A stretch of 53,489 bases of DNA, from positions 1 through 53,489 of the IMG/VR virus record IMGVR_UViG_3300020438_000056; one strand, 5' to 3'. The position numbers were made by a program, and so were the translations under genes. Below, one piece after another: positions 31,922 to 52,470 of this stretch. The stretch's first letter is position 1; each line of letters begins with the position of its first letter. The notes beneath the pieces are model-generated. The model saw only the letters and a program-made list of their open reading frames with translations, made no database searches and was not told the origin of the DNA. The DNA is from a virus.

Positions 31922-33310
31922 TTAAGCACTCTTTAGGTTAGTAATCTTACCTTGTCCTTTGAAGAAGGAACAGCATGTCTCACCCATAGTGCGGTACATA
32001 CCTTGGTTTCCAAGTTTACCAACACCGAATGGGTTTCCACTAGTAATACCATCTTCGAAGTATTGTGTAGGTTTCATTACAGATAGCCACAAGTGGTCAG
32101 TATCTAGAATCAGTATGTCACTGATACGGTTAGTTACACCTGCACCTGTTGACGGCATATCCTTAGCAGGGATAATTGGTATGTCATAGTATGTTGCAAC
32201 TCTGAAACCAACTTCTTGACCCTTAACACCACGAACACCATTATGGGTAGGAACAATCTCTTTCCTGTCCATGAATCTTTCTTGTGCTTGTAACAAGTCA
32301 GAAAGTTTCTGTATGGTATCATATCCAGTAAGGATAACTTTAGGGTTTCCACCGTTTTGGCGTATTTTCCTAATCATATCGTTAAGTAGGCTCAATGTTA
32401 GAACTCTACAATCAGCAGGTAGGTATCCTGCTCCGAAATCAACTTCTGCATCTAAGAAAGAAGGTACACCTGTGTAGGTGAATGACCCACTGCTTCCTGC
32501 AACTGTTACAGTTCTTGTTGAACCGTAGATAGTTGCCGCATCAGCAATCTGAGCGAATGTACCATCGTTGTTCTTGCTGTTATGGAAGATGTTATCTTCT
32601 TGCATCATAGCCAACTCAGCCGCAGATGAAACTATCTTCAGTAGTGAAGTATAGTTCTTCTCAATACCTGTTGTACCGTTCTCGTTATACTTCTCAAGAG
32701 GCATAACTAACATTTTACTCTGAACTTCTGCGTGTAGTTTACCCATGTCTTCTCTAACGATAGCACGAATATCACCAACACCGTCATCAATTGCTGCAAG
32801 TTCCATTCCAAGTTCTGAGAACTCAAACAGATGTGCAACAGTCTTAGGACTGACGTATAGTTTTGTGTACTCAGGCGCTAATGCATGGAAGTCTGTACCA
32901 ATTACAGCATTCTCTCCAACTCCACCAATAGTATCTGCTCTTGGTGTTGCCGCATCAGCAGAACTAATTGAACCAGTTACAGCGTTAGAACCTGTTGCGA
33001 AATTAGAACCACTACCACCAATAGGTCGGCTCTTTAGAACTCTCCAACCTGAAGATGTGTATGGCCTCTTTGCAATCATAGAAAGAGGGTTTACTTCTTG
33101 GTTCAGCATAGACCAAACTTTCTGTCCATAAAGAACGTTGTATAAGTCACCTAGACCTGCCGCCGCAGTAAAGGGATTTGAAGAAGCATCGTGAGGTGTA
33201 CCAAACCCACCAACAACTCCACCCGCTTTGAGTAGAGCATTACCGGAGTTTCCACCGTATCCGTACGTAGCCGCTTCTAAATCTTTCATTGTTTTAATAT
33301 ATCCTGACAT
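31922..33310 (-). CDS. Major capsid protein, HK97 fold (462 aa)
   Basis: The gene follows the protease-scaffold by two bases and encodes a 462-residue protein with features of HK97-type capsid subunits: an N-terminal Gly/Ala-rich arm (residues 1-55), LYNVLYGQKVWSMLNQEVNP, a helical spine region (FSELGMELAAIDDGVGDI), an EDNIFHNS segment, and a C-terminal section VILTGYDTIQKLSDLLQAQE then DTDHLWLSVMKPTQYF. Location directly after the maturation protease is standard. The N-terminal arm may be trimmed during maturation. A strong hairpin follows it. Confidence 0.88.
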   Translation of the reverse strand: MSGYIKTMKDLEAATYGYGGNSGNALLKAGGVVGGFGTPHDASSNPFTAAAGLGDLYNVLYGQKVWSMLNQEVNPLSMIAKRPYTSSGWRVLKSRPIGGSGSNFATGSNAVTGSISSADAATPRADTIGGVGENAVIGTDFHALAPEYTKLYVSPKTVAHLFEFSELGMELAAIDDGVGDIRAIVREDMGKLHAEVQSKMLVMPLEKYNENGTTGIEKNYTSLLKIVSSAAELAMMQEDNIFHNSKNNDGTFAQIADAATIYGSTRTVTVAGSSGSFTYTGVPSFLDAEVDFGAGYLPADCRVLTLSLLNDMIRKIRQNGGNPKVILTGYDTIQKLSDLLQAQERFMDRKEIVPTHNGVRGVKGQEVGFRVATYYDIPIIPAKDMPSTGAGVTNRISDILILDTDHLWLSVMKPTQYFEDGITSGNPFGVGKLGNQGMYRTMGETCCSFFKGQGKITNLKSA

Positions 33311-33312
33311 AT

Positions 33313-33981
33313 TTAATCACCTCTTGTTAATGCGTGTAAGTCATCCCAAGACATCTCAGCCGCCGCTTCGATACTTGTTGGGAAACCAGTAGGTAGTGAC
33401 ATAGCCACTTCTTGTGCTTTCCTAATCTCAGAGTTTCTCTCTGTTAGAGATTTGCGTAGTTCAGCAAACTCTGTTTTCAGAGCCGCTACATCAGAACGAG
33501 CATCATATTCTGCTCTTTCTGCTTTAGCCTTTTTTACAGATAGTTCGTTAGTAAACCTTGCTTCGAACTCTTTACTTAGAGAATCGTAAGCCATTGCTTC
33601 CATTCTTTCTGCTTTAAACTTAGCATAAGCCTTCTCAACATTCTCAACGCTCAAATCAAGAGTAGAGAAATCAGTTCCCTCTAATCCTTTTGCTACGTTA
33701 AGTGCAGCAGGTGCAGCAGTAGGCTTACCGCCACTTACTACTTCTTCTCCTGCTTCGAACTCTCTTGTTTCATCTTCATCAAGAGCCTTCTCTTCCATGT
33801 CTTCGTCTGCTTTTTCTTCCATTTCCATGTCTGCTTTTTCATCCATGTCCATGTCATCTGCATCAGTATCCATATACTCTGCGTTCTTTGTTACGGCATC
33901 ATCAACTTCACTGTGAACGTTGTTAACTTGTTTCATCAAGTCATTCAACTCTTCCAGTGCTTTTTCCAATTTTTCACTCAT
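33313..33981 (-). CDS. Nested scaffold protein from internal in-frame start (222 aa)
   Basis: Inside the protease-scaffold gene an ATG at 33981 is preceded by a strong ribosome-binding site (ATGGAGGATAAAACA), stronger than that of the full-length start. Starting here would give only the scaffold part: the coiled-coil segment SEKLEKALEELNDLMKQV, the acidic repeat, a second coiled coil and the C-terminal tag SWDDLHALTRGD. Nested scaffolds of this kind are established for lambda (Nu3 within C). This is an inference from the internal Shine-Dalgarno and the domain boundary, not proven. Confidence 0.65.
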   Translation of the reverse strand: MSEKLEKALEELNDLMKQVNNVHSEVDDAVTKNAEYMDTDADDMDMDEKADMEMEEKADEDMEEKALDEDETREFEAGEEVVSGGKPTAAPAALNVAKGLEGTDFSTLDLSVENVEKAYAKFKAERMEAMAYDSLSKEFEARFTNELSVKKAKAERAEYDARSDVAALKTEFAELRKSLTERNSEIRKAQEVAMSLPTGFPTSIEAAAEMSWDDLHALTRGD

Positions 33982-34515
33982 TGTTTTATCCTCCATTTTT
34001 AAAATGTCGAACTTTGCTTCGGGATTAATCCCTTTCTCGCAGATTGTAACTTCATGCAGTTCCAACCTGTCTATCTCGTTGTATTCCCCATACTCATCAG
34101 AAGTCTTTTGCTTCTTTGAGATGGCTTGTCCACCTATACTAAAGGAACGAAGTGTTCCTTTTCTAATACCTCTTGATATTTCTTTTGCCTTTTCTATGTC
34201 ATCTCTTAATTTGATAACTACATAGAACCCAACATCATCAACTGAAGTCTTGTGGAGTACACCGTGACTATCACGGTATTGCTCAACAACTTCTCCAACT
34301 TGTACATTAGAATGATTAGACATTACATTTCTGTATTTCTCGTCAGACATGTATTTTTTAACAGCATCATTTAATGCTTCTAGTGTGATTAAATCATTTT
34401 GTTTGTCAACTATTTCTATTGAAGCATAACCTCCAATGATTAAACTATCTGACTTAAGAATGCTGAACTCATGAGAAGATTCTGCCTTTAGTAAAGGAGA
34501 TTCCATCATCAACAT
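33313..34515 (-). CDS. Prohead protease fused to scaffold, with C-terminal tag (400 aa)
   Basis: The N-terminal ~170 residues look like an S78/U35 prohead protease: candidate catalytic His in VMSNHSN (about residue 68), Ser in RSFSIGG (about 124-126), and the typical ending LELHEVTICEKGINPEAKF. After this come an acidic repeat (DMDMDEKADMEMEEKADED) and a long coiled coil (scaffold), then a linker. The extreme C-terminus is SWDDLHALTRGD, matching the terminal tag family of this window. An ATG at 34515 was chosen; TTG at 34524 and ATGs at 34509/34506 are alternatives. Ribosome-binding signal is weak, but a TATA-like box lies upstream. The protease would cleave scaffold, capsid and perhaps tagged cargo. 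Confidence 0.82.
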   Translation of the reverse strand: MLMMESPLLKAESSHEFSILKSDSLIIGGYASIEIVDKQNDLITLEALNDAVKKYMSDEKYRNVMSNHSNVQVGEVVEQYRDSHGVLHKTSVDDVGFYVVIKLRDDIEKAKEISRGIRKGTLRSFSIGGQAISKKQKTSDEYGEYNEIDRLELHEVTICEKGINPEAKFDILKMEDKTMSEKLEKALEELNDLMKQVNNVHSEVDDAVTKNAEYMDTDADDMDMDEKADMEMEEKADEDMEEKALDEDETREFEAGEEVVSGGKPTAAPAALNVAKGLEGTDFSTLDLSVENVEKAYAKFKAERMEAMAYDSLSKEFEARFTNELSVKKAKAERAEYDARSDVAALKTEFAELRKSLTERNSEIRKAQEVAMSLPTGFPTSIEAAAEMSWDDLHALTRGD

Positions 34516-34539
34516 TGCAGTCAAGTTTCTACTCTTACT

Positions 34540-37680: not shown

Positions 37681-37911
37681 TCACTCCATATCTTTTACTA
37701 GTTTGTGTATGTCTTCCCAGTCCATACTCTTTTTGATTGTATTTCCACCTACAATATTCCTACTATCCATAGTAGGAGAAGGAGATTCGTAAACAACGTA
37801 TCCCGATTTCATTAGTAGATTGTCTTTATGATATACTGCATTTTCTAGAGCCTTAACCTTGTCAACTAATTCTTTCATTAGCATAAGCATTTCATTATTT
37901 TCTTCACTCAT
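37681..37911 (-). CDS. Small coiled-coil protein with C-terminal tag (76 aa)
   Basis: The first ~30 residues are a helix with heptad character (MLMLMKELVDKVKALENAVY), then a short extended middle, then the C-terminal KKSMDWEDIHKLVKDME. This ending matches the scaffold C-terminus (SWDDLHALTRGD) in the pattern W-x-D-[IL]-H-x-L. The two C-terminal tags share the His that N-terminal tags replace by Leu or Val. It lies directly after the 27-residue tagged gene. Possibly a small scaffold-associated protein. Confidence 0.6.
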   Translation of the reverse strand: MSEENNEMLMLMKELVDKVKALENAVYHKDNLLMKSGYVVYESPSPTMDSRNIVGGNTIKKSMDWEDIHKLVKDME

Positions 37912-38038: not shown

Positions 38039-38386
38039 TCATTTACCATCCTTTTTCTTATTCTCAGGATAAACCATTTTTCTTAGTTGATTGTATAGTG
38101 TTTCATAGTCTTTTCTTAGTTCAGATGCTGATGCAAGTATTTCTAGATTTTTCTCATCAAAACCTTCTACTTGCTTACTTAGTTTCTTATCTGATTTTAC
38201 TATATCAATGTCTTTCAGTTCACCGATTAAGTCTGATAGTTGAGTCATCTCTTGACCCATTGTGTTAGTAGGTTGAGACTTCTGTAAAAGTTTCTTTAGT
38301 TTCTTTTTCTTCTTAGCGTCTATCTTCTCGATAAATACAGGAGAGAAGTAGAAGCCCTCTGCTTTAACAATATCAAACCACTTCAT
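38039..38386 (-). CDS. N-terminally tagged coiled-coil protein (115 aa)
   Basis: Starts MKWFDIVKAEGF, a full match to the tag, then a Lys-rich patch (EKIDAKKKKKLKKLLQKS) and two helical segments with coiled-coil character (QLSDLIGELKDIDIV, EILASASELRKDYETLYNQL), ending basic (PENKKKDGK). The ATG overlaps the stop of the preceding 566-residue protein (ATGA) and follows GGGGGAG. No known family. The combination of tag and basic patch fits a virion-internal or DNA-associated protein. Confidence 0.65.
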   Translation of the reverse strand: MKWFDIVKAEGFYFSPVFIEKIDAKKKKKLKKLLQKSQPTNTMGQEMTQLSDLIGELKDIDIVKSDKKLSKQVEGFDEKNLEILASASELRKDYETLYNQLRKMVYPENKKKDGK

Positions 38387-40083
38387 TGAGACTCCCCCGT
38401 TGCTTCATCAGATGAGGGTTCATCTAATGATTGTTTTTGTTTAGGCAGATTTTCTAGAACTCTATCAACTACTTTGATTCTATCTTCTAATTCAGGTAAT
38501 TCCTGTTCATAGTAATCTATCCAATCTTCTAGTGATTCTTTCTGTTCTTCTATTTCATCTTCTGCAATATTGTTTGGATTACTACCATCAACTAATCCTT
38601 TCAGTCCTTCTTGATATGCTTCTGTTATTTTCTTATATTGTTCTATTGTTTCTAATAACTTATCTTTAGTTGATGTAAATAATCTAAATCGCTGAGATGG
38701 ATTATCCGGTAAGTTTCCTGATTTAGCATCTTCTGCTACTTCCTTAACTTTACCACTGAACTCATTTATTTTGTCTTCAAGTGTTTTAGATTCTTCAAGT
38801 GTTTTAGGGCCAATATACCTATCAGGATATTTAAGAGAAGTTTTACTTCTAATACCAATCCTTTGTGGTGTTACTTGCTTAGGTGTTTTTTGTCTTCTTT
38901 TAGTTGCTTCAGGTGCATACTTCTCAGGGTCTTCTTCATAAAGTTCCCAAGCAGTTTCTAGATTTGGGAACTCTCTATTCATCTTAAGTGGTGAACGTCT
39001 ATACTTGGTAGATATACCACGAACTCTTTTGAGCCTACTTTCTTTCAATCTACTAAAATCTCCTGTAAGAGTATTAATTCTAATTAGATATTCTAAAGCA
39101 TCAAATTGTTTTTCTAGTTCTGCTTTCATTTCACTTTCGCTCATATCTTCATTAGTAGTATAAATTATATCAGGAATCAACCTGTAAATCATCCTGAGAA
39201 TATTATCAGAATTAAAGAATAATCTATAATGTTCAGCAGGGTCTGCATTTTTAGTTTGAATTAATTTAGTTATCTCATCTACAAACTTGTCAATGTCTAA
39301 AGAATAATATTGTTCTACACCTTTCATTCCTGCTTCTAGTTCCCCAACCTTTCTGACTGGGATTCTAGCAACTTGGTATATTTCCATTAGTATATCAATA
39401 CTAGACTTACCATTGTACTCTCTAACTTCTGACCATCCATCTTCAAAAGTTGCATTTGGAGGAATAAATAATTTTGATACATCAGGCTTTAATTTACCTT
39501 TACCTTCTAGTAAATATCTTTGAACTAACTTTGCACTAGAGGCTAAGTTTTCTCGCATATCTCTTATCAGAGTTTTAGCCTTAGAGTTGTTACCATATTT
39601 AGACCAAGTTTGTAATAGTGTTTTCATGTTCACTGAAAACTTAATGCTTTGGTCAGTTCTAACACCTAAACCTATTTTTAATTTTTCAAGGGGTTGTTTA
39701 TCTCCTTCAAATAAAAACTCATATAGTTCATTTTGTTCACTTTGCAATGCCCCTAAATCAAGAGTGCCACCTTCTTTGAGTCTATCTAAACTACTTTTTT
39801 CAGGTTTAATTTGACTCTTTAAGTTGTTTATTCTGTTGATAAACTTCTGCTTATCTTTTTCCAAAGCAACAGCGTCTTTATCTTGAGAACGGAAACCCAT
39901 TCTAAGAATATTCTGTATTTTTTTATCTTCTTCAGCCGCACTTTGCAATAACCTATCAGCACGATATAACGAACCCCTGTCAATTTTAGTGTCTTCTTTT
40001 TTATTTGCTGTATCAAACGCCCACCAAACATCAGTATGGATATCAGACCCATCTGTTCTTTTGAGGACATCCATGAAAGTCAT
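38383..40083 (-). CDS. N-terminally tagged large helical protein (566 aa)
   Basis: Begins MTFMDVLKRTDGSD, a variant tag with Phe in place of Trp. The rest is mostly helical and charged, with a coiled-coil section in the N-terminal third (DRLLQSAAEEDKKIQNILRM), basic segments around residue 345-400 (RLKRVRGISTKYRRSPLK) and a C-terminal Glu-rich coiled coil ending SLDEPSSDEATGESQ. No recognised domain or active site. Its style is like the 596- and 913-residue proteins near 47-51 kb. Virion-internal protein is an inference from the tag. Confidence 0.6.
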   Translation of the reverse strand: MTFMDVLKRTDGSDIHTDVWWAFDTANKKEDTKIDRGSLYRADRLLQSAAEEDKKIQNILRMGFRSQDKDAVALEKDKQKFINRINNLKSQIKPEKSSLDRLKEGGTLDLGALQSEQNELYEFLFEGDKQPLEKLKIGLGVRTDQSIKFSVNMKTLLQTWSKYGNNSKAKTLIRDMRENLASSAKLVQRYLLEGKGKLKPDVSKLFIPPNATFEDGWSEVREYNGKSSIDILMEIYQVARIPVRKVGELEAGMKGVEQYYSLDIDKFVDEITKLIQTKNADPAEHYRLFFNSDNILRMIYRLIPDIIYTTNEDMSESEMKAELEKQFDALEYLIRINTLTGDFSRLKESRLKRVRGISTKYRRSPLKMNREFPNLETAWELYEEDPEKYAPEATKRRQKTPKQVTPQRIGIRSKTSLKYPDRYIGPKTLEESKTLEDKINEFSGKVKEVAEDAKSGNLPDNPSQRFRLFTSTKDKLLETIEQYKKITEAYQEGLKGLVDGSNPNNIAEDEIEEQKESLEDWIDYYEQELPELEDRIKVVDRVLENLPKQKQSLDEPSSDEATGESQ

Positions 40084-40325: not shown

Positions 40326-40595
40326 TCACCTGTTTTTCTCTTCTCTCAAGTTTCTAGTTGCTCTGTCTATCATAGACTGTTGCCCTGCTGTTTTTGGAAC
40401 AGTAGGCATTCGTATTTGAGTATCAATTCTTTGTGGAACTTTCAATTTAGATTCAGAAGTATTGTATTGTGCAATTATCTCTCTGATTCTCTTTGCTTGG
40501 GAAGTATGAGCCTTAACTGCTTTATCCAATTCACCTGCTATCTCTTCTAACGTCTTTACATTCATTTCATTTTTTAGTATATCTTGCCAACTCAT
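40326..40595 (-). CDS. N-terminally tagged small helical protein (89 aa)
   Basis: Starts MSWQDILKNEMNVKT, one of the clearest tags, followed by a helix (LEEIAGELDKAVKAHTSQAK) and a basic C-terminal half (RIDTQIRMPTVPKTAGQQ, then RATRNLREEKNR). Its leader and first codons are identical to those of the 124-residue tagged gene over 19 bases (GGGATTTAGAATGAGTTGG). The ATG overlaps the stop of the preceding 55-residue gene. No family recognised. Confidence 0.65.
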   Translation of the reverse strand: MSWQDILKNEMNVKTLEEIAGELDKAVKAHTSQAKRIREIIAQYNTSESKLKVPQRIDTQIRMPTVPKTAGQQSMIDRATRNLREEKNR

Positions 40596-40759
40596 TCTAA
40601 ATCCCTCAATCCCTTTGCAGCCTTTCTAGCAACTGTTCTCAACAATTCAGCAGAATAGTTTTCCTGTTCACTTGCATCTTGTAAGTATTCAATAATACTT
40701 TTAATTGAATCTAATCCTTTTGATACTTCTTCATTTTTAATTATACCTTCCCAACTCAT
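40592..40759 (-). CDS. N-terminally tagged 55-residue protein
   Basis: An ATG at 40759 opens a 55-codon frame that ends in TGA overlapping the next start (ATGA). The product begins MSWEGIIKNEEVSKG and continues as a helix (IKSIIEYLQDASEQE) and a basic end (RTVARKAAKGLRDLE). The tag matches its neighbours, with Gly for Asp at position 5, and its NE residues after the Lys match the 89-residue neighbour (KNEE versus KNEM). Start codon, overlap and tag together make it a real gene despite its size. Confidence 0.65.
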   Translation of the reverse strand: MSWEGIIKNEEVSKGLDSIKSIIEYLQDASEQENYSAELLRTVARKAAKGLRDLE

Positions 40760-40773
40760 TTTAACTCAACCCA

Positions 40774-41148
40774 TTAATGTTTATATGCCTGTTGTCTTTC
40801 TGTCTTTTTCGCTTTCGAAGAACTTACCGGATAATTTTCAATATCAAGAGGGCCTTCTTGTATGCTATGACCTAGTAGTTCTTCCAACTCTTTTTGATTA
40901 TGAAAATGTTCTAGCATTTGTTCATATTGATTTTGTTCTTCTTGTGGGTTTTGTTCTCTACCCTTCTGATTCATCACATTGCGTGGTTGTTCATTTCCTG
41001 TTGCATTAATCATGTCTTGTATCTCTCTTAGTTTTTTGGTCTTTTGCCTTTCATTAGTAAAAGAAACTGGACTACCATTTACCTTTCTATTCAGACTTAA
41101 TGTTTTTCTTGTCGTATTTTTTCTTTTAACAATGTCAAACCAACTCAT
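40774..41148 (-). CDS. N-terminally tagged Gln/Asn-rich protein (124 aa)
   Basis: The start chosen, ATG at 41148, follows AGGGGATTTAG and gives MSWFDIVKRKNTTRKT. The in-frame codons upstream (MEHRNEF...) are less likely because the ribosome site and tag both mark 41148. The middle is rich in Gln, Asn and Glu (NPQEEQNQYEQMLEHFHNQ) and the protein ends basic (SSKAKKTERQQAYKH). It is the first gene after the portal. No recognised family. Confidence 0.65.
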   Translation of the reverse strand: MSWFDIVKRKNTTRKTLSLNRKVNGSPVSFTNERQKTKKLREIQDMINATGNEQPRNVMNQKGREQNPQEEQNQYEQMLEHFHNQKELEELLGHSIQEGPLDIENYPVSSSKAKKTERQQAYKH

Positions 41149-41218
41149 TCTAAATCCCCTGCTATTGGTAAACTCATTCCTATGTTCCATACTATTATAT
41201 CTGAAAACAATCTTAGTT

Positions 41219-42874
41219 TCATCCTACTCTCCTCTCTGTTCTTTTGTCCACATTCTCATTTCCTGCTTCTCTTGGTAATCCTGTAAATCTTTTATCCGGC
41301 CCTGTGGACATTGACGGTTTGTTTCTCGTAGCGGGGGGGTTCTCTTGAGGTTTGCTATCAGATTTATTTCCTCCCATCATCATCTGTTCTTGCATTTGCC
41401 CCATCTGACTAGCGTCAATATCTGTTCCTGCATACGGGTCTAAACTAACATCTTCTTCTTCTCCGCCACCTTCTGCTTGTTCAGGTTTAGGTTCAGGTTT
41501 AGTGTAAATAAATCTACCTTCATCATCCATGTCAACTTCAAACCCTAAGTTCTTAATTGCGGCAGCAACGTTAACTTCTATCTCTCTCTTACGAAGAACA
41601 GCGATTTCATCTTCTTCTTCTGATGGAGGTAACTTAAGTTGCCAATCAGTTATTCCAAACTCTTCTGTCATAAATGGAAACACATAATTATTCCAAATAG
41701 TCTGTGCCATTTCCACTGCTCTATTAGTAACTAGTACTTGCATACCTTCATTATTCAAACCACCACTGGCAGAGTTATCTGCCATGAAGATTTTACTAAC
41801 GCCATAGAATGCTGAAATCCTATCTCTCAAATCATCCTTAACTTGTATGTAGTCCATTTCTTTTAGACTGTCCATGAACTTAACCCATTCAACAGAACCT
41901 TTTCCTCCCTCAGATTCTATTCCCATTACAGGTATGAAGTGTGGGTCTTGTTCCATCTTTTCTTTAACACCACGCCAAAATGATTTCATAGAATCCATGT
42001 TTCTTGTTTGAACAGCCAATAATCCCTTCGGCATTCTTGCCTTAGTGTAAGAAGAATTGACATAATTATCCATAGCAATTAATGTTGTAATGTTATTCCA
42101 AAGTGTTATGACAGGTGAAAGACCATACAATCTACTTGGTGAGTATTTACTAAAATGTAGAACTTCTCCCTTCACGAAGTATTGTTCTTCTCCGTTTACT
42201 CTGTTAACATAATGAACAGGGTGTAGTTCTGAATTACAATTTTCACAAAGTTCAGTAGCACTAGTATGTATTCTATGTCTATGTCTCAAACAAGTATAAC
42301 CACTTTTACCTCTTTCACCAAGTTCGTTAGAATAGATGTGCATTGTTACTGGGTCGCCACGATATACTTCTTTGATTCTATGCATTCTAACTGAATTGTT
42401 ATTATCAGCATAATATTCCTTAACCATAACCATATACGCATCATCCATTATATTCAAGTCATCTTCAAGTTCTTTCAATACATCAATAAACATCTGTTCT
42501 GAACAATTAACATACCCTTCTAAGAAATCTTTAGCATATTTTAGTTGGTCAGGGTTTGGTTTTTCTAATTCTAAACTTCCACATTGCACACACTCTTTAG
42601 TTGCGTTTTCATGTTCCTTTCCACAAGACCTACATTTTACTGCGAACTTAGCATCCCAATGATAACCTCGCCTAAATATCTCCTGCTTAAGTTGCGTAAT
42701 ACACGTTCTAACAATTGTTGATTGTGTAACTATATGGTAGATAATAGGAGTAGTCAAAAGATACGAATTATCTTTTTCTTGAATACCCATATTGAATACT
42801 GTTCTATCTGCGGGTTTAGGTGTAGTTTGCCTAAACAAATTACTAACACTAAATCTTCTTTTCTCTTCTACCAT
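41219..42874 (-). CDS. Portal protein with two zinc-ribbon insertions (551 aa)
   Basis: The order of features fits a portal: an N-terminal IIYHIVTQSTIVRTCITQLK, a YMVMVKEYY strand region, VLHFSKYSPSRLYGLSPVIT, helices of the stem (LIAMDNYVNSSYTKARMPKG), and the conserved FYGVSKIFMADNSASGGLNN followed by a long helix. Two Cys-rich inserts are unusual: C81/C84-C95/C98 forms a full zinc ribbon, and C195-H198 with C210/C213 a second. The C-terminus is low-complexity (Glu, Pro, Met, Gln). Located between two tagged genes. The protein forms the DNA-packaging vertex; the ribbons may contact clip or terminase. Confidence 0.82.
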   Translation of the reverse strand: MVEEKRRFSVSNLFRQTTPKPADRTVFNMGIQEKDNSYLLTTPIIYHIVTQSTIVRTCITQLKQEIFRRGYHWDAKFAVKCRSCGKEHENATKECVQCGSLELEKPNPDQLKYAKDFLEGYVNCSEQMFIDVLKELEDDLNIMDDAYMVMVKEYYADNNNSVRMHRIKEVYRGDPVTMHIYSNELGERGKSGYTCLRHRHRIHTSATELCENCNSELHPVHYVNRVNGEEQYFVKGEVLHFSKYSPSRLYGLSPVITLWNNITTLIAMDNYVNSSYTKARMPKGLLAVQTRNMDSMKSFWRGVKEKMEQDPHFIPVMGIESEGGKGSVEWVKFMDSLKEMDYIQVKDDLRDRISAFYGVSKIFMADNSASGGLNNEGMQVLVTNRAVEMAQTIWNNYVFPFMTEEFGITDWQLKLPPSEEEDEIAVLRKREIEVNVAAAIKNLGFEVDMDDEGRFIYTKPEPKPEQAEGGGEEEDVSLDPYAGTDIDASQMGQMQEQMMMGGNKSDSKPQENPPATRNKPSMSTGPDKRFTGLPREAGNENVDKRTERRVG

Positions 42875-42875
42875 A

Positions 42876-43175
42876 TTACCACTTCACTTTGTTCGCCCAA
42901 TATGCCGCAGAAGTTTTTCCTCGTTTAATATTCTTAGCATGACGAGCCTTGAAGGATGCCTGTTTCTTTTTTCTCTTTCCTTTAGGGTTACTTTCAGTAA
43001 CAGTCTTCGCACCTTGTTCGCCAAATCTAATTGTTTTGACTTTCTTTCCGTCTTTAACAACTACAACATGCGATTTGGTTTTATGTTTAGGAGTTCTCTT
43101 TGGTTTACTAAAACCACTAACACCTGCTCTCTTTAATGCCGGATGTTTTTTTAGAAGTTCAAACCACTCAGTCAC
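42876..43175 (-). CDS. N-terminally tagged very basic protein (99 aa)
   Basis: A GTG start at 43175, just inside the stop of the preceding gene (GTGACTGA), gives VTEWFELLKKHPALKR, which carries the tag core WFELLK. The frame upstream is open to 43253, but it lies inside the preceding gene, so a longer start is unlikely. The body resembles small basic proteins common in marine phage genomes, with HVVVVKDGKKVKTIRFGEQG, SFKARHAKNIKRGKTSAAYW and the end NKVKW. High Lys/Arg content suggests nucleic-acid binding. Packaging inside the virion is inferred from charge and tag. Confidence 0.7.
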   Translation of the reverse strand: MTEWFELLKKHPALKRAGVSGFSKPKRTPKHKTKSHVVVVKDGKKVKTIRFGEQGAKTVTESNPKGKRKKKQASFKARHAKNIKRGKTSAAYWANKVKW

Positions 43176-43602
43176 GATAACCACCACCTGCTTTTTTGTA
43201 AGCGGCTGCAAGCATTTGTGCTTTTCTTGCAGACCATTGACCTGCTGCTCCACCTTTACTACCTGCTTTGATTCTCTGAAATTGTTTTTTTCTCATTGTT
43301 GGTTTAGTGTAGTTTCCTGCTGAATTAACAGTGGATGTTTTTTCTAACCCTTCTACTGCTTGGTATTTCTTTTTAGCGGATTTTCCTCTTGGAACATGTT
43401 GCTTACCTTGCTTAGTACCTTCTCTTTTCTTTCGATTTTCATATGCCTTTTCTGAAGAAGACATTGAATCTGCTACTGCCTTTGGTGCATATCTTCCTTT
43501 CTTTTTTGATTTAGGTGAAACATATCCCCAATCTTCTCTAGTCCATTCAGATAAAGCACGTTGTCCTTTTGATTTGGCTTTCAAAGTATCAAACCAATTC
43601 AT
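43168..43602 (-). CDS. N-terminally tagged basic DUF5872-like protein (144 aa)
   Basis: Starts MNWFDTLKAKSKGQRAL. Residues 18-70 (SEWTREDWGYVSPKSKKKGR, then SSSEKAYENRKKREGTKQGK) resemble the DUF5872-type repeats found in phage and large DNA virus virion proteins. The C-terminal part GSKGGAAGQWSARKAQMLAA and YKKAGGGYRD is another motif often found in such viral basic proteins. Net charge is strongly positive. The ATG follows GGAGGGAG. A DNA-condensing virion protein is the likely role; family assignment is from memory of the pattern. Confidence 0.7.
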   Translation of the reverse strand: MNWFDTLKAKSKGQRALSEWTREDWGYVSPKSKKKGRYAPKAVADSMSSSEKAYENRKKREGTKQGKQHVPRGKSAKKKYQAVEGLEKTSTVNSAGNYTKPTMRKKQFQRIKAGSKGGAAGQWSARKAQMLAAAYKKAGGGYRD

Positions 43603-44935: not shown

Positions 44936-46369
44936 CTAGAAGTTCAGCCCCATCATACCGCCTAAAGACCTGTTCATTGGCTTAGGGTTATCAAATATTC
45001 CCATATCATCCAATAACATGAACACATCTTGTGTTTTTGTAGCGCAAGCGACAGCCAATGCTAAACTCATAACTAAGTCGTCATGCGCCCCTACACCCTC
45101 GAATCTACCGCTATGAGTAATAGAGAACATTGACAATTCTTCAATCAAAGCGTTGGTTAGATTTCTACTATTATTATCACCGTATGGGAAGTTTATTTTT
45201 CCGTTTTCAATATTCATTTGTAAACTCAAAATTATCTCTTGTTTCTTTTTTCTAGTAGTAGTAAAGTCTCTAACGTTTAAGTCTGAAATATTTCTTAGTT
45301 CTTGAGTGAATGCTTTAGCGAAAGTATTAGTCTCGTAGAGTATTTCTTCAGGCTCAAATATTCGACCAATCAAACGTATCTTCTCAATGTTTTCTCTGAA
45401 GTCAACATTCTTCGCTCTATCAACATGAACAATAGTTTTGTTTTTCTCATCATCAACTTCTATCACTGTAATAACATTGTAGTCTCCATCAGTTGAGATA
45501 GCAGGGTCAACTCCAACATAATACTTGTATCCCTTATCCTTTCTATGTCCTAGTCTCAAAACATAGTCTTTATTTTTACATTTAGCAATAAACTCAGGGT
45601 TGAACAATGCTGTTCCAGTAGAGATTGGAACACAAAGATATTCTCTTGTAAACTTAAGAGAACCTATCTCAGCCTTTCTTTGCATAAGTGCATCAAAGTC
45701 CCAACGTTCAGGCCAAAGCGGTTCATTCATTGAATCTAAACAAGGATATTTTTTAACAGAGTATGCACTATTTTCTTCTAACTGTGCAAAGATATCAGTG
45801 TAGGTAAACGGTGTACCAATCATTCTCAACTTAGAAGTGTGATGAAGTGTTGGTATCATATCTCCAAAGAACCAATCTGTAACTCGCTGAATACCTGCTA
45901 GACTAAACTCTTTCAAAGGGTCGTCAATAATAATCTCTTGAGGGTGAAGTCCTCTAATCTGAGAACCAACAGAACGTTCCAAAATAGCATTACCATTTGT
46001 TAATTGTATATTACCAATAGCCCAACCCCTACTAGGCTTGTACTTCTTAAGAGCAGGATGATTGAAATATCTGTCAATTTCTCTCATGTGAACTAAAGTC
46101 TGTTTTTGGTTAGAAGAAATGTATAGCATTTGATATGGTGGTTCTTGAAACACAAGATTCCATACTACCCAACTGTGCATAAAGACAGATTTACCGTGGT
46201 CACGACTACAAATAATAACAGTTCTATCGGTTGTTTCCATTGATTCTAACCACTCTTGCATGTAAGGAGGAAACATCATACCAAGAACATTCTGAAAAAA
46301 ATAAGGAAAAGATGTTTTAGATATTTCCATATCCATAGAGGATATAAAATCTAACTCATCTATCTCCAT
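44936..46369 (-). CDS. terL: Terminase large subunit (477 aa)
   Basis: The ATG at 46369 follows GAGGAAAT and lies two bases after the preceding stop; an upstream in-frame GTG-type start (adding nine residues) would overlap that gene. The ATPase domain shows Walker A-like CSRDHGKS (residues 54-61), Walker B EIIIDDP (about 146-151) and motif GTPFTYTD. The nuclease domain shows YYVGVDPAIS (D288) and GVGAHDDLVMSLALA (D430/431), the metal-binding positions of the RNase H-like fold. It powers DNA packaging through the portal and cuts the concatemer. Confidence 0.93.
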   Translation of the reverse strand: MEIDELDFISSMDMEISKTSFPYFFQNVLGMMFPPYMQEWLESMETTDRTVIICSRDHGKSVFMHSWVVWNLVFQEPPYQMLYISSNQKQTLVHMREIDRYFNHPALKKYKPSRGWAIGNIQLTNGNAILERSVGSQIRGLHPQEIIIDDPLKEFSLAGIQRVTDWFFGDMIPTLHHTSKLRMIGTPFTYTDIFAQLEENSAYSVKKYPCLDSMNEPLWPERWDFDALMQRKAEIGSLKFTREYLCVPISTGTALFNPEFIAKCKNKDYVLRLGHRKDKGYKYYVGVDPAISTDGDYNVITVIEVDDEKNKTIVHVDRAKNVDFRENIEKIRLIGRIFEPEEILYETNTFAKAFTQELRNISDLNVRDFTTTRKKKQEIILSLQMNIENGKINFPYGDNNSRNLTNALIEELSMFSITHSGRFEGVGAHDDLVMSLALAVACATKTQDVFMLLDDMGIFDNPKPMNRSLGGMMGLNF

Positions 46370-46371
46370 TC

Positions 46372-46929
46372 TTATTTCCTCATGATGTAAAACCAATTAG
46401 AGACAGGTCTGTAATATAACTTTCTAATTGCAGTAGTTGGGCTTTGTTCTCTCTCTAGTTTTTCTAAGACTTCTTTAACATCTTCAGGAATATCATCTTG
46501 TCTAATTACTTTCATATTACCATCAAACTCTACTCGTTGAAACCCCTGTCTATCAACAAAAACAGAAACTCCTTGTGGCATAGCCGCCCCTACTATTGGT
46601 CTATGACTATGTAAATCAACTACTTTTTTTGACACCCATAATCCTGCACCTCTAGTTTGTTCTCTAGATAATCCAGTTTCTTTTGCATGGCTCACTAATC
46701 CAGTTAACAAAAATATATTCTTGTAAGGAGCAATACCCTGAACTGCAACAGGCTTACCGTCTTTTAGAGTTGGATGATATGCAATGTAGTATTTTGGTTT
46801 AACTTCTGCAAACATTGTACCATTCAATCGTTGATAGCGTTGCGCTCTAGTCTTGTAGGTAATACCATGTTCAGCAAAAGCACGTACTACTTCTTCCTCA
46901 GTCATAGGGTTAGATATTTGAAACTCCAT
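46372..46929 (-). CDS. Possible GNAT-like acyltransferase next to terminase (185 aa)
   Basis: A compact α/β protein: MTEEEVVRAFAEHG, then FAEVKPKYYIAYHPTLKDGK, GIAPYKNIFLLTGLVSHAKE, TGLSREQTRGAGLWVSKKVV and the end YRPVSNWFYIMRK. The order β-strand, helix, R/Q-x-x-G-x-G-like loop and aromatic end is reminiscent of small phage acetyltransferases found beside terminase genes, but the acetyl-CoA loop is not canonical. The next gene, terL, starts two bases after it. Assignment is tentative. Confidence 0.4.
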   Translation of the reverse strand: MEFQISNPMTEEEVVRAFAEHGITYKTRAQRYQRLNGTMFAEVKPKYYIAYHPTLKDGKPVAVQGIAPYKNIFLLTGLVSHAKETGLSREQTRGAGLWVSKKVVDLHSHRPIVGAAMPQGVSVFVDRQGFQRVEFDGNMKVIRQDDIPEDVKEVLEKLEREQSPTTAIRKLYYRPVSNWFYIMRK

Positions 46930-46933
46930 CTAA

Positions 46934-49675
46934 TCACCTAAAGTTTGCCTTGAGAAAATACACACCTTCCTTCGGTACACCGTGTTTCTTACTTAACTCA
47001 TCCATTGAGTTTGTTTCAGTAACAATGTTCTCAATCTCATATGCAGTTATATCTACGTTATATTTTGATTTCATGATAAGCATAGCAGAATGAATATGTT
47101 CGTAATTATCAACCTTACCTGTATTATAATAAACAGGCTTACCTAACATCTTTCGAATATTATCATGTGCATCTAATAGTTTAGAATCTAAGTCACTCCT
47201 AAGAATCTTCATGTCATCTACTGCAATAATAAATCTCTGAACGATTGTGTTAGAACCTTTACTTCTTCTATCACTACCACGAACCATAGTTCTTTTACTA
47301 CCACTATACCCACCAACATTTCTTTTAATGTGAGATTCTATTGCCTCAAATGGATACACCTTAGATTCATCATACATCTCATTCCATTCTGCCGGAGTCT
47401 TACCTCTTGCATTAGGAAACTTTTCCCCTTCAGGCCAATCAATATTATTTGCTTCTAGTACCTTATGTAAATATGAACCAAACTCTATGTTAGTTTCTTG
47501 AGATAATATTGAGTTTCTTTTATTCATCATAACAAAGTTTACTGCTTTTATTCCTTTAGTTAGTTCATTTACTAACCTACCCATATCTTTCTTATCATCC
47601 ACTGAACTCAAAAACTCTAACATTCGAGTAAGGTCTTGTAACTCAGTTGGTTTAACCATCATGTATCCTGACCTACCTTCTAATGCTAACACCTTGAACA
47701 AGGCAGTATCAGTTCTACCAGTTGCTAATGCTCTGAATATTCTTTGAGTTTTACTTATTTTAGTATCAAATGGAAACTCATCATCGAATGGTTTGTTAGA
47801 CCCACTAATTGCAACCACGAAATAATCTAAGACTTCTTGAATTAAATCATCAAACTCTTCCCTTGCTTCTTCTATATCTGCTAAGTGGTCTTTTCTGTTT
47901 ACTGTCCCTAATTGTGGTCTTGACTGTGGAGGCACACCATCACTAGAAGAACCGATTGTGGCTTCAGCAGGAGCAGACGCTCTATCCAAATCATCACCCG
48001 CATCTAGTATTTTACTTAGGTTATCTAAAAACTCTCCAATATTCCTTAACCTATTGTTAATTCCTCTTTCAGTATTCATGGCTTTATCTTCAGTATTCCA
48101 ACTTTCTGTAACCATGAACTTATTCACTGTTTTTGTTAGTGGTAGATAATATGGGCCATTTCCTCCTCTAGCCATTGTCTTTTCTACTGCATCAACATAG
48201 TCATTAATTTCGTCATCCATATCAACACCCGTTGACATTTCTCTAGCCGCCCCTGCACTCAACATTGCTTCTCTCAATGTGTTAATGTCATTTCTAAAGG
48301 CAACAGTATCTTTGAATGCTCCACTATCCTTTGTGAATGCATGATAGAAAAGAGGGTCAACCTTTTGCGTAAGTCTTTCTAATTTAAGCCCAAACCTAGA
48401 TAACTCTTCCATTTCTTTCTTGTTCTCTGCCGCCCTTACATTTCTTTCTTGAGTAACAGCATCATCAGAATCAAACGTCTCCCCGCCATCTTCTACGGTA
48501 ATAGTCTCCTTGTAATCCCCACTATCTTTATCATAGTAGCCTTCTTTTCTAGCACTTCTATCATCGGAAGTATCTTTTAGATTATCTAATCCTACATCAG
48601 CAATAAACTTCTCATACAGAGCAAGTCCCTTGTGTCTCTTAAAATAGGGTTCTAGTTCTTTAGGGTTAATTTTCACAACGTAGTCTAATTCACCATTATT
48701 GATAATAGACTTGAAAGACAGAAACTTATCTATTACTTCTGCAATCTCTTGTTTATCTTTATCATCCTTATTTTCTTCTGTGTTTAACATATCCCTAATA
48801 GGAAGAAAGGCTTCATTACATGCGTTATATGCTTCTTTGAAATCATTATACTTACCCTTATGACCTCTCCAAAAATTGTAAATCCTATTACGCCTATCTA
48901 ATCTTTTAAGGTCAAGTTCACCAATTATTAAGTCAGCGTCTAAATGAATTATTTGTTCTTCTACCTTATCTAAAGGTCTTAAAACCGAAAGTAGTGGTTG
49001 AAGTCTTCTTTGAATCGCAGGAGTTTGATTCTGAATAACATACTTCCATTTGTTAATCTCTCTCATGTTTACGTTTCTATTCCTAAGCGAAACTCTAGTT
49101 AGTCTCCTATCACCTTCTATTGTGTTCTTATAATTCAATTGCTTACCATTTTCATCTAAGAAGTTCTTCAAAGTTTCATTTAGTAGTGCTTTGTCTCTTT
49201 GAATTGTTTTACTATCATCAATCTCATCTGTGTCTAAGTCGGTACTCTTAACACCGCCTTTAACCTCTGATAGTTTTAATAATGTTTTAACCATTATATC
49301 TCTAGTAGATTTTGGAATCTCGCTAAATCCTTTGTACTTACTGTTAATATCTTCAACTAGGATATTAGTTAACTCACCCAGTTGTTTTCCTTTGAGTTGA
49401 TATTTACTAGATAGAGTCTTTTTATCATTATCAAAGAAGTCATTATCGTTGACTAAGAAAGTATGTAGAAACTCAGGTTTGAATCCATCATCATAATCAT
49501 CAAGTCTATCGTCTGCTTCCATTTCTATTTTACTTTGTAAGTTTTTTAATTGTGTAGGTTTCAAATCCCTATATTCTTCAGACTCCTTAACTTTCTTTTC
49601 AGCAAAGTCTTCCATCGAATCAGGATTAACCATTAGTGTTTGGAATGCTTCGTATAGTTCAGTATCTTCTATCAT
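46934..49675 (-). CDS. Very large helical protein, unknown function (913 aa)
   Basis: The ATG at 49675 overlaps the previous stop (ATGA). The protein is charged and predominantly helical, with long Asp/Glu/Lys-rich segments (TEENKDDKDKQEIAEVIDKF, EDGGETFDSDDAVTQERNVR) and a basic segment with SKRTMVRGSDRRSKG near residue 800. It ends DELSKKHGVPKEGVYFLKA, which resembles a small HTH. No Walker, nuclease or protease motif was found. No terminal tag is present. It is among the largest proteins upstream of the terminase, a place sometimes used for ejection or internal proteins. Confidence 0.55.
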   Translation of the reverse strand: MIEDTELYEAFQTLMVNPDSMEDFAEKKVKESEEYRDLKPTQLKNLQSKIEMEADDRLDDYDDGFKPEFLHTFLVNDNDFFDNDKKTLSSKYQLKGKQLGELTNILVEDINSKYKGFSEIPKSTRDIMVKTLLKLSEVKGGVKSTDLDTDEIDDSKTIQRDKALLNETLKNFLDENGKQLNYKNTIEGDRRLTRVSLRNRNVNMREINKWKYVIQNQTPAIQRRLQPLLSVLRPLDKVEEQIIHLDADLIIGELDLKRLDRRNRIYNFWRGHKGKYNDFKEAYNACNEAFLPIRDMLNTEENKDDKDKQEIAEVIDKFLSFKSIINNGELDYVVKINPKELEPYFKRHKGLALYEKFIADVGLDNLKDTSDDRSARKEGYYDKDSGDYKETITVEDGGETFDSDDAVTQERNVRAAENKKEMEELSRFGLKLERLTQKVDPLFYHAFTKDSGAFKDTVAFRNDINTLREAMLSAGAAREMSTGVDMDDEINDYVDAVEKTMARGGNGPYYLPLTKTVNKFMVTESWNTEDKAMNTERGINNRLRNIGEFLDNLSKILDAGDDLDRASAPAEATIGSSSDGVPPQSRPQLGTVNRKDHLADIEEAREEFDDLIQEVLDYFVVAISGSNKPFDDEFPFDTKISKTQRIFRALATGRTDTALFKVLALEGRSGYMMVKPTELQDLTRMLEFLSSVDDKKDMGRLVNELTKGIKAVNFVMMNKRNSILSQETNIEFGSYLHKVLEANNIDWPEGEKFPNARGKTPAEWNEMYDESKVYPFEAIESHIKRNVGGYSGSKRTMVRGSDRRSKGSNTIVQRFIIAVDDMKILRSDLDSKLLDAHDNIRKMLGKPVYYNTGKVDNYEHIHSAMLIMKSKYNVDITAYEIENIVTETNSMDELSKKHGVPKEGVYFLKANFR

Positions 49676-51462
49676 GCTCTACCACCTTCACTAGCAATCC
49701 ATTGGTACGGTTGAGTTGCTCCCTTTTTATTATGTAGTATAGGTTTCTCCATAACCTCAGACATTTTCTCTTTTATTCTAGTTAGTAATTCTTTATGAAT
49801 ATTAGAATAAGTCTCAACTAATTCTTGTTTGAACTTGTCTATTCCTTCAGGAGTTCTCTCCTTTCTTAGTTTTCTTAGAGCGAGTTGTAGATTTCTATCA
49901 CCTAGCAGGTATCCTTCTAGTTGTACTAGCATAGTAAGTAAGTCTGAAAATTGCAATGATTGTTTAGATGATACCTTGAAGTCTTTCAACTTCTTTCGTG
50001 TGTCTCCTACTTCACCTAAATAATTACCAATTGGGTCATTATCAACATCCTCGAATAAAAATTGTAATGTTGGAATACGTTGTGGGTCAGTTATAGAAAC
50101 AGTTCCTTCTGCTTTCTCTTCCATTTCTTTTAATGCCGCTAATATCTGTTCAGGTTCTCCAAACTCAACATCACCAACTCTCATTCTCTTTACGGCATTT
50201 CTAACCTTAGAACCAAAAATATGCCCTAGTTCTTTTCTAACTAATTCTTGTTGTGGCTTGGATGAACTTCCTTCCATTATAGCAACAAGTGCATCTCGCA
50301 AATCTGCCTTTAGAGTATATCTTCTAACTTGTGTTTTAGAGACTAATTCTTCATACTCTTTTCCTAGTTCTGCATTATACACTGCTGTTTTGAATTGGCC
50401 GTATCCTTTTGTTTGAGTTGGTGCAGTGCCTTTTTTACGTTGATATTTACTAGAAACCCCAGTCTTTACAAACTTATTATACAATGCAACAATCTCTGCG
50501 TTGTCTACAAGACCATCTCTAATATTCTGCATAAATTGTTTTTCTTGTAGAGACTGCTTAGTTTGAGTTTTAACAAATCCGACATCTAGATTCAAAGTAT
50601 CGTTATTCAATATGTAATCTAAAGCAGGATATATTCTACTAGTCGAGGCTGAACTCTTTTCCGCCCCAAAGAACTCTCGCTGTATTGTTTTCATTGCTCT
50701 ACTAATACTCTTAACATTTTCAAAGTCAGTCAAGTTCGGCATAAATGGTTCTCTTGCTTGTCCTCTTATTGAACTAATAACCATTTTCAGATAATCTACT
50801 GCGAATGAATCTGATATAGTTGAGACATCTAACTTCTGAGAAGATATAACATCGTCTTCCTTATACTTGTCAAGACCAAACACTTTCCCTAAAACAGTTC
50901 TAATGATTTCTTTATCCGGCTTTCCACCTTGTAATAGTTTAGCCTGTTCAGGACTCATAAACTCAGGAAGAGTAACTGTCAATTTGCTACCTGAGACAAA
51001 TGAAAGACCTTCTAATTTATCAGTATCAAATGTCAAAGGCAATTGTAGTTCTATACCATCTGTAACATAACCATAGAGTTCAGGCTTGTCTTTGATGTAA
51101 TTGAATATCTTCTCACCATTTTCTTCATCCCACTTGAGTAACCTACTAGTCTTAGCACCTGATTTAGCAGTTCCTTTTTCTAAGAAAGTAATTAGGGGTT
51201 TGTGATTACCTGCAAGAAAGTCCTCATACAATTTTACTTCTTTAGGATTCTTATAATCATCATCTTTTTTTGAAGCACCTAATTTATCCAATAGAGGTTG
51301 AAACGCTTTCTCAGGTAAACCATCTTCTACCAAGTTATTGATTGCCCTTCTAATCTGAGACTTACCATGATTAGCAAGTATCTCATCAAAGTTACCTGAC
51401 TTTCTAGAAGCAACAATCTTCTCACTGAGAGTTTGCCTTTTCAGAATCTCTGTCCAATTCAT
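49672..51462 (-). CDS. N-terminally tagged large helical protein (596 aa)
   Basis: ATG at 51462 is chosen because it follows AAAGGAGAAGTTACA and yields MNWTEILKRQTLSEKI, a full tag; an in-frame start 11 codons upstream would overlap the preceding gene and hide the tag. The body is helical and charged (for example LLDKLGASKKDDDYKNPKEV and KFKQELVETYSNIHKELLTR), with YTLKADLRDALVAIMEG in the middle. No domain recognised. The leader shares AAGTTACAATGA with the neighbouring 82-residue tagged gene. Candidate virion-internal protein. Confidence 0.65.
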   Translation of the reverse strand: MNWTEILKRQTLSEKIVASRKSGNFDEILANHGKSQIRRAINNLVEDGLPEKAFQPLLDKLGASKKDDDYKNPKEVKLYEDFLAGNHKPLITFLEKGTAKSGAKTSRLLKWDEENGEKIFNYIKDKPELYGYVTDGIELQLPLTFDTDKLEGLSFVSGSKLTVTLPEFMSPEQAKLLQGGKPDKEIIRTVLGKVFGLDKYKEDDVISSQKLDVSTISDSFAVDYLKMVISSIRGQAREPFMPNLTDFENVKSISRAMKTIQREFFGAEKSSASTSRIYPALDYILNNDTLNLDVGFVKTQTKQSLQEKQFMQNIRDGLVDNAEIVALYNKFVKTGVSSKYQRKKGTAPTQTKGYGQFKTAVYNAELGKEYEELVSKTQVRRYTLKADLRDALVAIMEGSSSKPQQELVRKELGHIFGSKVRNAVKRMRVGDVEFGEPEQILAALKEMEEKAEGTVSITDPQRIPTLQFLFEDVDNDPIGNYLGEVGDTRKKLKDFKVSSKQSLQFSDLLTMLVQLEGYLLGDRNLQLALRKLRKERTPEGIDKFKQELVETYSNIHKELLTRIKEKMSEVMEKPILHNKKGATQPYQWIASEGGRA

Positions 51463-51487
51463 TGTAACTTCTCCTTTCATTCTTTTC

Positions 51488-51736
51488 TTAACCAAATAAT
51501 TGTTTTATCCTTATTTGATAGATTTTTTCAACCATAAGAAATACTTTTTTTTCGGAAAACTTAATTTTGCCATCTATGACTTGTGCCTTTACTCTCATAA
51601 TAGATTCATCTATGGCCGATTCATCAATACCTCTTCTCTTCATTTTGAGTCTTAGTTCTGTTTCACCTTCTTCGGCATCTTTTTCATAATATGTCTTCTG
51701 CCAGTTTTCTTCTTTTACTATATCTTTCCAACTCAT
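51488..51736 (-). CDS. N-terminally tagged small basic/acidic protein (82 aa)
   Basis: Begins MSWKDIVKEENWQKTYYEKD, an exact tag, after GGAGGATAAGTTACA. The remaining ~60 residues include a charged turn (EEGETELRLKMKRRGIDESA) and a helix-strand end KKVFLMVEKIYQIRIKQLFG. The ATG overlaps the stop of the zinc-knuckle protein by four bases. Small and not assignable to a family. Tag and position suggest the same class as the genes at 38-43 kb. Confidence 0.65.
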   Translation of the reverse strand: MSWKDIVKEENWQKTYYEKDAEEGETELRLKMKRRGIDESAIDESIMRVKAQVIDGKIKFSEKKVFLMVEKIYQIRIKQLFG

Positions 51737-52389
51737 TGTAACTTATCCTCCATTTGCTTTCTAACATCTAACCAAACTTCAGGGTGATTTTGTGCTAACA
51801 CTTCTTTGATGATTTGCATTTGATGAATGATAACAGTGTCTTGTCTCTTGTGAACTAACTTACCTTTGAACTCCATTAGATACTTCAAAGATTCACGAAC
51901 CTCTTTTGCTAACTTAGTTAATGAATCTATGTACTTAGCATCCAAATCATCTGAATCCATGAGTTGGTCTAACTTACCTTCAAGCCTAGAGATGTTACCA
52001 CTAAGAGTATCAATCTCATTTACTTCCTTAACTGCTAGAATATGTGCGGCGGCTTTTTGGACTAGAGGTTGAGTGTGTTGTTTTATGTGTCTAACAACTT
52101 GCTCCTTAGAACTACCTACAATCTTAGCCGCTAAATCAGGAGTCATATCTCCACTGTAAAGTTCTTGCTCAATTTCTGAACGGTTCTCATATGTACATAG
52201 TTTACATCTTGGATTTGAAGCATCTGCATATCCTTCCATGTGATTACGTTGATGTTTTGCACTTGTGCCACTAGGCCAATTCATTCTAATATCCAAATCA
52301 TCAGGTGAACAAATCATAGTCTCCAAATCAGATTCAAGGGATTCCCTGTCCTCATGATTACAAAGCCTACAACGTTTTCTTGTTACCAT
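51733..52389 (-). CDS. Tandem CxxC-HxxxH protein, small terminase candidate (218 aa)
   Basis: Two copies of the same metal-binding module occur with identical spacing: C7-C10-H46-H50 and C62-C65-H101-H105, a 55-residue period. Each contains a helical region that could be an HTH (second copy: DLAAKIVGSSKEQVVRHIKQ). A long coiled coil follows (ISRLEGKLDQLMD and LAKEVRESLKYLMEFKGKL). DNA-binding modules plus an oligomerisation helix and location upstream of terL fit a small terminase subunit that recognises the packaging site. Other DNA-binding roles are possible. Confidence 0.5.
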   Translation of the reverse strand: MVTRKRCRLCNHEDRESLESDLETMICSPDDLDIRMNWPSGTSAKHQRNHMEGYADASNPRCKLCTYENRSEIEQELYSGDMTPDLAAKIVGSSKEQVVRHIKQHTQPLVQKAAAHILAVKEVNEIDTLSGNISRLEGKLDQLMDSDDLDAKYIDSLTKLAKEVRESLKYLMEFKGKLVHKRQDTVIIHQMQIIKEVLAQNHPEVWLDVRKQMEDKLQ

Positions 52390-52470
52390 TCAATATTCAC
52401 CACAATAAGGACACATAGTTCCTGACCAGTTATCTTCATCAATTTTTTTTATTCCTCTACAACAACTCAT
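52390..52470 (-). CDS. Tiny zinc-knuckle-like protein (26 aa)
   Basis: ATG at 52470 overlaps the preceding stop (ATGA) and the frame ends one gene-space before the next ATG (TGA at 52390-52392). The product reads MSCCRGIKKIDEDNWSGTMC and continues PYCGEY: two Cys near the start and CPYC at the end, which could bind one zinc ion. Too short for family assignment; called on translational coupling and the Cys pattern. Confidence 0.4.
   Translation of the reverse strand: MSCCRGIKKIDEDNWSGTMCPYCGEY

Follow-up and report, generated by a model that had tools for sequence, protein, structure and literature searches.

The DNA analysed here (the window, that is the whole 53,489-nt stretch of a viral record) encodes several otherwise different proteins that begin with a similar short peptide, the tag, and some of the tagged genes share DNA across their starts. 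The question raised by this locus is how such DNA came to be duplicated. The initial annotation had proposed that leader and tag spread together as a cassette, by short recombination between leaders, so that new genes acquire the tag along with expression signals. Our comparison of the window with its relatives indicates that the duplicated DNA is probably a recombination seam and not a tag-spreading cassette.

The two repeat pairs and their setting

Genes for a terminase, a portal, a prohead protease, a capsid protein and an ATP-dependent ligase were recognised in the window, and all of its main genes are carried on the minus strand (Table 1). Judged by gene content, the window belongs to a magrovirus-type archaeal tailed virus. 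The related records were 92–101 kb long and a B-family polymerase was matched in 11 of 11, mostly as two pieces; the window and its relatives agree with the published profile of the magrovirus family, tailed viruses of marine archaea (PMC10768690). The gene-content features of Magrovirales were all found, namely a genome of 90–100 kb, a two-part B-family polymerase, an ATP-dependent ligase and HK97-type head genes, and no reference magrovirus was recognised among the matches listed. Magrovirales are viruses of marine Poseidoniales. A host assignment from GTDB contigs was rejected, the single match being a bacterial MAG contig that is probably misbinned. The record L083 (NZMJ01000101.1), filed under a bacterial Maricaulis MAG, has a terminase 79% identical to that of the window and looks like a misbinned virus. 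Another record, L105 (IMGVR_UViG_3300021958_000021, 184733 bases), contains two related terminase genes and probably results from the joining of two magrovirus genomes during assembly or from genome doubling.

Table 1. Positions of the repeats, head genes and tagged genes in the window
Feature	Position	Strand	Remarks
First copy of the 19-base seam (ribosome site, ATG, AGT TGG)	41140..41158	-	ATG at 41148
Second copy of the 19-base seam	40587..40605	-	ATG at 40595
Left AAGTTACAATGA repeat	51733..51744	-	border of 274-bp cassette
Right AAGTTACAATGA repeat	51459..51470	-	border of 274-bp cassette
25-aa micro-ORF MKLRLFSDIIVWNIGMSLPIAGDLE	41145..41222	-	between portal stop and 41148; its 3' end is the leader
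Terminase large subunit	44936..46396	-
Portal protein	41219..42874	-	left border of variable slot; phrog_18178, 1e-62
Head maturation (prohead) protease	33313..34524	-	phrog_23555, 5e-14
Major capsid protein	31922..33310	-
Tagged gene, 144 aa, MNWFDTLK	43168..43602	-
Tagged gene, 124 aa, MSWFDIVK	40774..41148	-
Tagged gene, 55 aa, MSWEGIIK	40592..40759	-
Tagged gene, 89 aa, MSWQDILK	40326..40595	-	other leaders on the same gene in L006, L008, L011
Tagged gene, 566 aa, MTFMDVLK	38383..40083	-	conserved neighbour of variable slot
Tagged gene, 115 aa, MKWFDIVK	38039..38386	-	W3 and K8 invariant across 30 homologues
Tagged gene, 82 aa, MSWKDIVK	51488..51736	-	the cassette missing from L004
Tagged gene, 596 aa, MNWTEILK	49672..51462	-
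313-aa ORF, divergent tag MSLLDLVK	52467..53408	-	L in place of W

We confirmed that the genes starting at 41148 and 40595 have in common an exact 19-base string, GGGATTTAGAATGAGTTGG, over the ribosome site, start codon and first tag codons. It occurs exactly twice in the window, with no further copy even when 3 mismatches are allowed. Its chance expectation in the window (up to 3 mismatches) was 0.02 and two copies were obtained in no shuffle, under a null that takes no account of shared ribosome sites and codons; the shuffle test ruled out a chance repeat as the source of the pair. Identity between these two genes ends at codon 4 (TTT versus CAA). The second pair reported initially, at 51736 and 51462, was also recovered; both copies have AAGTTACAATGA in common, then differ at one base, and after it both continue with TTGGA. 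Among tagged genes in general, exact matches of 19 or more bases around the start occur in 427 of the 42,494 non-homologous pairs drawn from two genomes and in 19 of the 729 pairs within one genome, and the GGGATTTAGAATGAGTTGG pair is therefore one case of a common pattern.

The initial annotation needs correction in one respect, since the leader of both GGGATTTAGAATGAGTTGG copies doubles as the coding end of an upstream ORF. At both copies the upstream frame meets the tagged gene by an ATGA overlap, the upstream ORF closing on the TGA within it. The ORFs that end there are a 25-aa micro-ORF (..GDLE) and the 55-aa tagged ORF (..RDLE). The micro-ORF follows directly after the portal, has an ATGA overlap at both sides, and is kept as a protein in about five or six close relatives (L003, L004, L006, L007, L008) while missing from others.

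The tag is conserved as a protein sequence

Tagged genes were compared in the window and 80 portal-bearing relatives, and in a second set of 104 further loci with 495 tagged genes. In the first set, tagged ORFs with an ATG start numbered 393 in sense and 2 in antisense orientation, which ruled out antisense or random occurrence of the tag. Clustering of residues 11 onward gave 133 body families, 79 of them singletons (129 families after dereplication), some of which are possibly over-merged or over-split. The tag comprises eight N-terminal residues, M-[S/T/N/K]-W-x-[D/E/N]-[I/V]-[L/I/V]-K, and information above 1 bit was found at residues 2–8 only (S/T/N/K/D, W, x, D/N/E, I/V/T, L/I/V, K). All six codons are used for Leu7 and all three for Ile6. 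This free codon choice at residues 6–8 shows that the tag is conserved as protein, and it ruled out a DNA or RNA signal. The first base of codon 2 is A in 90% of tagged genes, compared with 49% of untagged genes; the ATGA overlap with the previous stop is present in 43% and 9%, respectively.

Matches to the tag were confined to the terminase–portal–head region in most near-complete relatives, wrapping round the record ends in two of them, and each ~21-kb locus contained 2–12 tagged genes. Record G007 had only three scattered matches to the strict pattern. A scan of IMG/VR for the tag gave at least 119 stretches; among the matches listed, several contigs carried a related terminase and a few longer ones matched neither a terminase nor a capsid protein. 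L106 and L155, contigs of 56 and 73 kb, carry the tagged gene MSWKDILKLSPNIAQ, with the terminase and capsid protein of the window both unmatched there. Because the tag is found on longer contigs of this kind, it may extend beyond the lineage to another virus group. Tag-like sequences were also seen near the C-termini of two head-region proteins (..KSMDWEDIHKLVKDME, 37681-37911; ..FDNWQDMLVRL, 52467-53408), possibly a second use of the motif.

In the 115-aa tagged protein the tag was predicted to form a short, poorly fixed helix (residues 3–9) followed by flexible residues, with the hydrophobic residues 3, 6 and 7 of the tag on one helix face; the predicted fold had no significant match in PDB. 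In relative L008 a new tagged N-terminus has been fused to an old body and the tag that is now internal has decayed, which points to a tag that is functional at the N-terminus alone. The domains recognisable on tagged proteins are mixed (PAP2 phosphatase, EF-hand and DnaJ-type zinc domains). Two tagged proteins with a PAP2 phosphatase domain (L067:11815-12615 and L061:3605-4180, E about 1e-12) are among the few with a recognisable enzyme domain. A 161-aa tagged protein of L036 was considered as an Alt-like ADP-ribosyltransferase and gave no support for that assignment.

Most likely, with somewhat better than an even chance, the tag works like a capsid-targeting sequence, although we do not file it as one. 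It would then be a docking signal that takes diverse proteins into the prohead, as the capsid-targeting sequence of phage T4 does. We regard it as possible, if rather doubtful, that the tag instead serves late-gene expression or some other common partner (translation initiation, a host factor or the DNA-packaging machinery). Such a role would suit the general preference for ATGAGT starts in these genomes and the mixed domains of the tagged proteins, whereas the conservation of residues 6–8 as amino acids with their codons free, the position of tagged genes beside head genes in most genomes and the presence of a prohead protease gene argue against it.

Position of the seam and exchange of tagged genes

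The initial annotation had suggested aligning tagged starts and asking whether identity ends at the tag boundary. For different genes in the same slot (138 family pairs; pairs here and below are not independent, since relatives share events, and counts are guides rather than exact tests), identity stood at ~0.9 from the leader across the ATG to the end of codon 2, became complete at TGG and had fallen to background by codon 4 (+9). Identity in these pairs extended over the upstream gene too, and on through ATGAGTTGG. When the same gene was found in different slots (27 families), the leader was near background and identity was high from the ATG, codons 4–8 included. These two patterns together mean that codons 4–8 belong to the gene and the leader usually to the slot, with ATGAGTTGG in between. 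ATGAGTTGG is thus the seam joining slot and gene, and it lies inside the first three tag codons (nine DNA letters). Measured against the tag boundary, identity in same-slot pairs stops earlier, at codon 4, and in moved genes the whole tag stays with the body.

The ends of BLAST alignments gave the same position. Right ends peaked at +8, the last base of TGG (47 versus 0.3 expected), a point that similarity would reach even if the true crossover were slightly upstream, because ATG and TGG are common to all tagged genes; left ends peaked at -4 to 0 (58). In the 104 loci not used before, 33 right ends fell at +5..+9 (1.2 expected) and 29 left ends at -5..+4 (2.4 expected). A right-hand break at 0..+12 was found at 22% of tagged and 4% of untagged starts, compared with ~1% inside genes for both. 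The proposal that the common leader and tag DNA marks short recombination was borne out by these data, as breaks in similarity are much commoner at this point than at other gene starts, in the new loci as well.

We detected 14 distinct indels that begin and end on the seam. In one genome of each comparison the leader of the slot is fused directly to the gene's own tag, and in the other the two are separated by one to four tagged genes (at most six genes in all). L004, which is 97–99% identical to the window, is without the 274 bp between the AAGTTACAATGA copies, so that the 82-aa gene at 51736 is gone and the first leader is kept; from this loss, the second repeat pair delimits an excisable unit. 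The slot that follows the portal is occupied by different tagged genes in nearly every relative, in the order 25-aa ORF or none, one to four tagged genes, and then the conserved 75–76-aa, 566-aa and 115-aa genes. The joint in this slot lies at times in the ribosome site, so that GATTTAGA moves with the gene; GATTTAGA was found on the same gene in L035 and in the window with different neighbours. An assembly artefact is unlikely, since the joints recur over many independent assemblies and the repeats that bound them fall below the k-mer lengths usual in assembly. A 441-aa ORF at 43599-44924, which lies between the terminase gene and that of the 144-aa tagged protein, gave a weak match to HNH/homing endonucleases (phrog_5046, 4e-5) and might drive gene exchange at this locus.

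In this magrovirus lineage, accessory genes flank the terminase and portal genes in head-to-tail slots, each beginning with the 8-residue tag, and we propose that the exchanged unit consists of the tag, the gene body and the leader of the next gene. Units would be lost, gained or replaced via short identities (about 9–25 bases) over the ribosome site, the ATG and the first two to three tag codons. After exchange within the seam the upstream gene would be intact, the ribosome site functional and the tag complete, and so the seam would account for turnover of tagged genes with no loss of expression or address. The common bases may themselves take part in pairing, beyond marking those exchanges that survive selection.

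It is unlikely, in our judgement, that the common bases are idle in recombination and that selection on the tag as protein, look-alike ribosome sites and the survival of start-site exchanges only would together give this pattern. Left ends pile up at the ATG (-5..+4) in untagged genes too, from which it follows that gene starts in general are exchange points here and that part of the pattern is ordinary phage mosaicism; AGT is also the favoured Ser codon at position 2 of untagged genes (220 of 275). Breaks are, however, ~5 times as frequent at tagged starts, and the leader tails TTTAGA and GTTACA, which are not ribosome-site bases, each recur before 16–17 unrelated families. Codon 2 follows the slot in 0.78 of tagged same-slot pairs (background 0.37) and in 0.17 of untagged pairs (background 0.06). 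In untagged genes slot identity is already fading upstream of the ATG and an in-frame seam is absent; what is distinctive of tagged genes is the depth of slot identity into the reading frame. In 43% of tagged genes the leader is upstream coding sequence, which by itself would protect the left side and speaks against a seam, but bases +4 and +5 of codon 2 lie outside the upstream stop codon, so that stop-codon protection does not explain why they follow the slot in tagged genes and only weakly in untagged ones. Ribosome-site or codon constraint alone, which the initial annotation had named as the explanation that could undo its proposal, was ruled out by the leader/tag permutation and by the tagged/untagged controls.

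That a leader-plus-tag cassette copied onto new genes, bringing tag and expression signals together, is the main route appears quite improbable. Codons 4–8 are at background in the 138 same-slot pairs, independent of the leader, and tied to the body in moved genes; few if any bodies were found fully untagged, as in most homologues off the strict pattern a W-x-x-[I/V]-[L/I]-K core survives close to the N-terminus. In the 27 moved families the gene keeps its tag in full and the leader alone is different, which implies that an incoming gene is already tagged and mostly receives the resident ribosome site. Shuffling leaders among genes with the same codon 2 left mean tag identity unchanged (0.586 versus 0.577 permuted). 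Upstream identity between genes in different slots is at background (about 0.29) above -20, so no promoter travels and the leader was ruled out as a promoter carrier. Traces of copying were nevertheless found. Linkage of leader and tag past codon 3 is mildly raised (33 matches versus 13 permuted, with at least 7 leader and at least 12 tag bases), and same-genome pairs with at least 19 common bases number 13 versus 3.6 under permuted genome labels. The unrelated genes L014_666 and L031_1378 match over 40 bases of leader and whole tag, and in about 8 families the tag on an unchanged body differs beyond body or leader expectation (for example MKWFDIVK versus MTWQDVLK on the 115-aa protein), which looks like tag replacement or fast tag change. 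The gain of tag and expression signals by new genes, as first suggested, therefore stands as a minority process and fails as the general rule.

Implications and comparison with known systems

Combining the seam with the proposed role of the tag, we tentatively picture a lineage of archaeal head–tail viruses with a universal N-terminal packaging address, the DNA of which would double as the splice point for swapping tagged genes at ATGAGTTGG while frames, ribosome sites and address are kept, and with particles loaded with ever-changing injected proteins; we rate this picture a little short of an even chance. If the tag is a packaging address, sequence alone would mark the particle-borne proteins of uncultured, abundant ocean archaeal viruses, and over a hundred families, mostly of unassigned function, would probably be delivered at the start of infection.

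We found no earlier description of this tag and seam system in the literature, and the closest comparison is with T4. Ten N-terminal residues of the T4 capsid-targeting sequence suffice for prohead entry, residues 4 and 7 mattering most (PMC9026906). In both T4 (IPI–IPIII, Alt) and the magrovirus a short N-terminal peptide stands on otherwise unrelated, variable accessory proteins, and both have a prohead protease. T4 MKTYQEFIAE and magrovirus MSWQDILK show the same order of aromatic, Q, acidic, hydrophobic and hydrophobic residues, with T4 residues 4 and 7 matching W3 and I6, a similarity of pattern that is too short to prove common origin. A protease site of the [LI]xE kind was not found behind the tag, a point against full membership of the T4 class: LxE-like triplets were not enriched at residues 9–25 (0.61 versus 0.67 and 0.54 further in), and the specificity of the protease of this virus may differ. 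Reading the T4 ipII and ipIII sequences directly, we found that both start with MKTYQEFIAE and that 15 leader and 32 tag bases are identical before the genes diverge, so that cassette copying is realised there. The magrovirus differs from T4 in its tag of eight rather than ten residues, its presumably archaeal host, its 2–12 tagged genes per ~21-kb locus against a handful, and its DNA identity, which usually stops at codon 3 rather than at the tag end; packaging of the magrovirus proteins is inferred.

An N-terminal stretch of about 30 residues is needed to direct the phage P1 protein DarB into the head (PMC9024508). DarB is a single protein, and the parts of that report available to us describe no short motif over many genes of the kind seen in the magrovirus. 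Short junction repeats have been linked to module shuffling in the PeSL 'mobile regulatory cassettes' of T4-type phages (Arbiol 2010) and in a similar motif of the haloarchaeal virus HGTV-1 (PMC3950731). The PeSL cassettes carry a promoter and stem-loop between genes, whereas the magrovirus repeat consists of a ribosome site and the first coding bases. A promoter within the repeated unit, as in PeSL, was not found here, identity between different slots being ~0.29 above -20. Mosaic phages, the lambdoid group among them, have short boundary or linker sequences in common at gene borders, and mosaic joints coincide with these. Unlike them, the magrovirus joint is itself coding and contributes residues to a conserved protein tag, and it offers a testable case of coding DNA as a module joint that refines the old boundary-sequence ideas on phage mosaicism.
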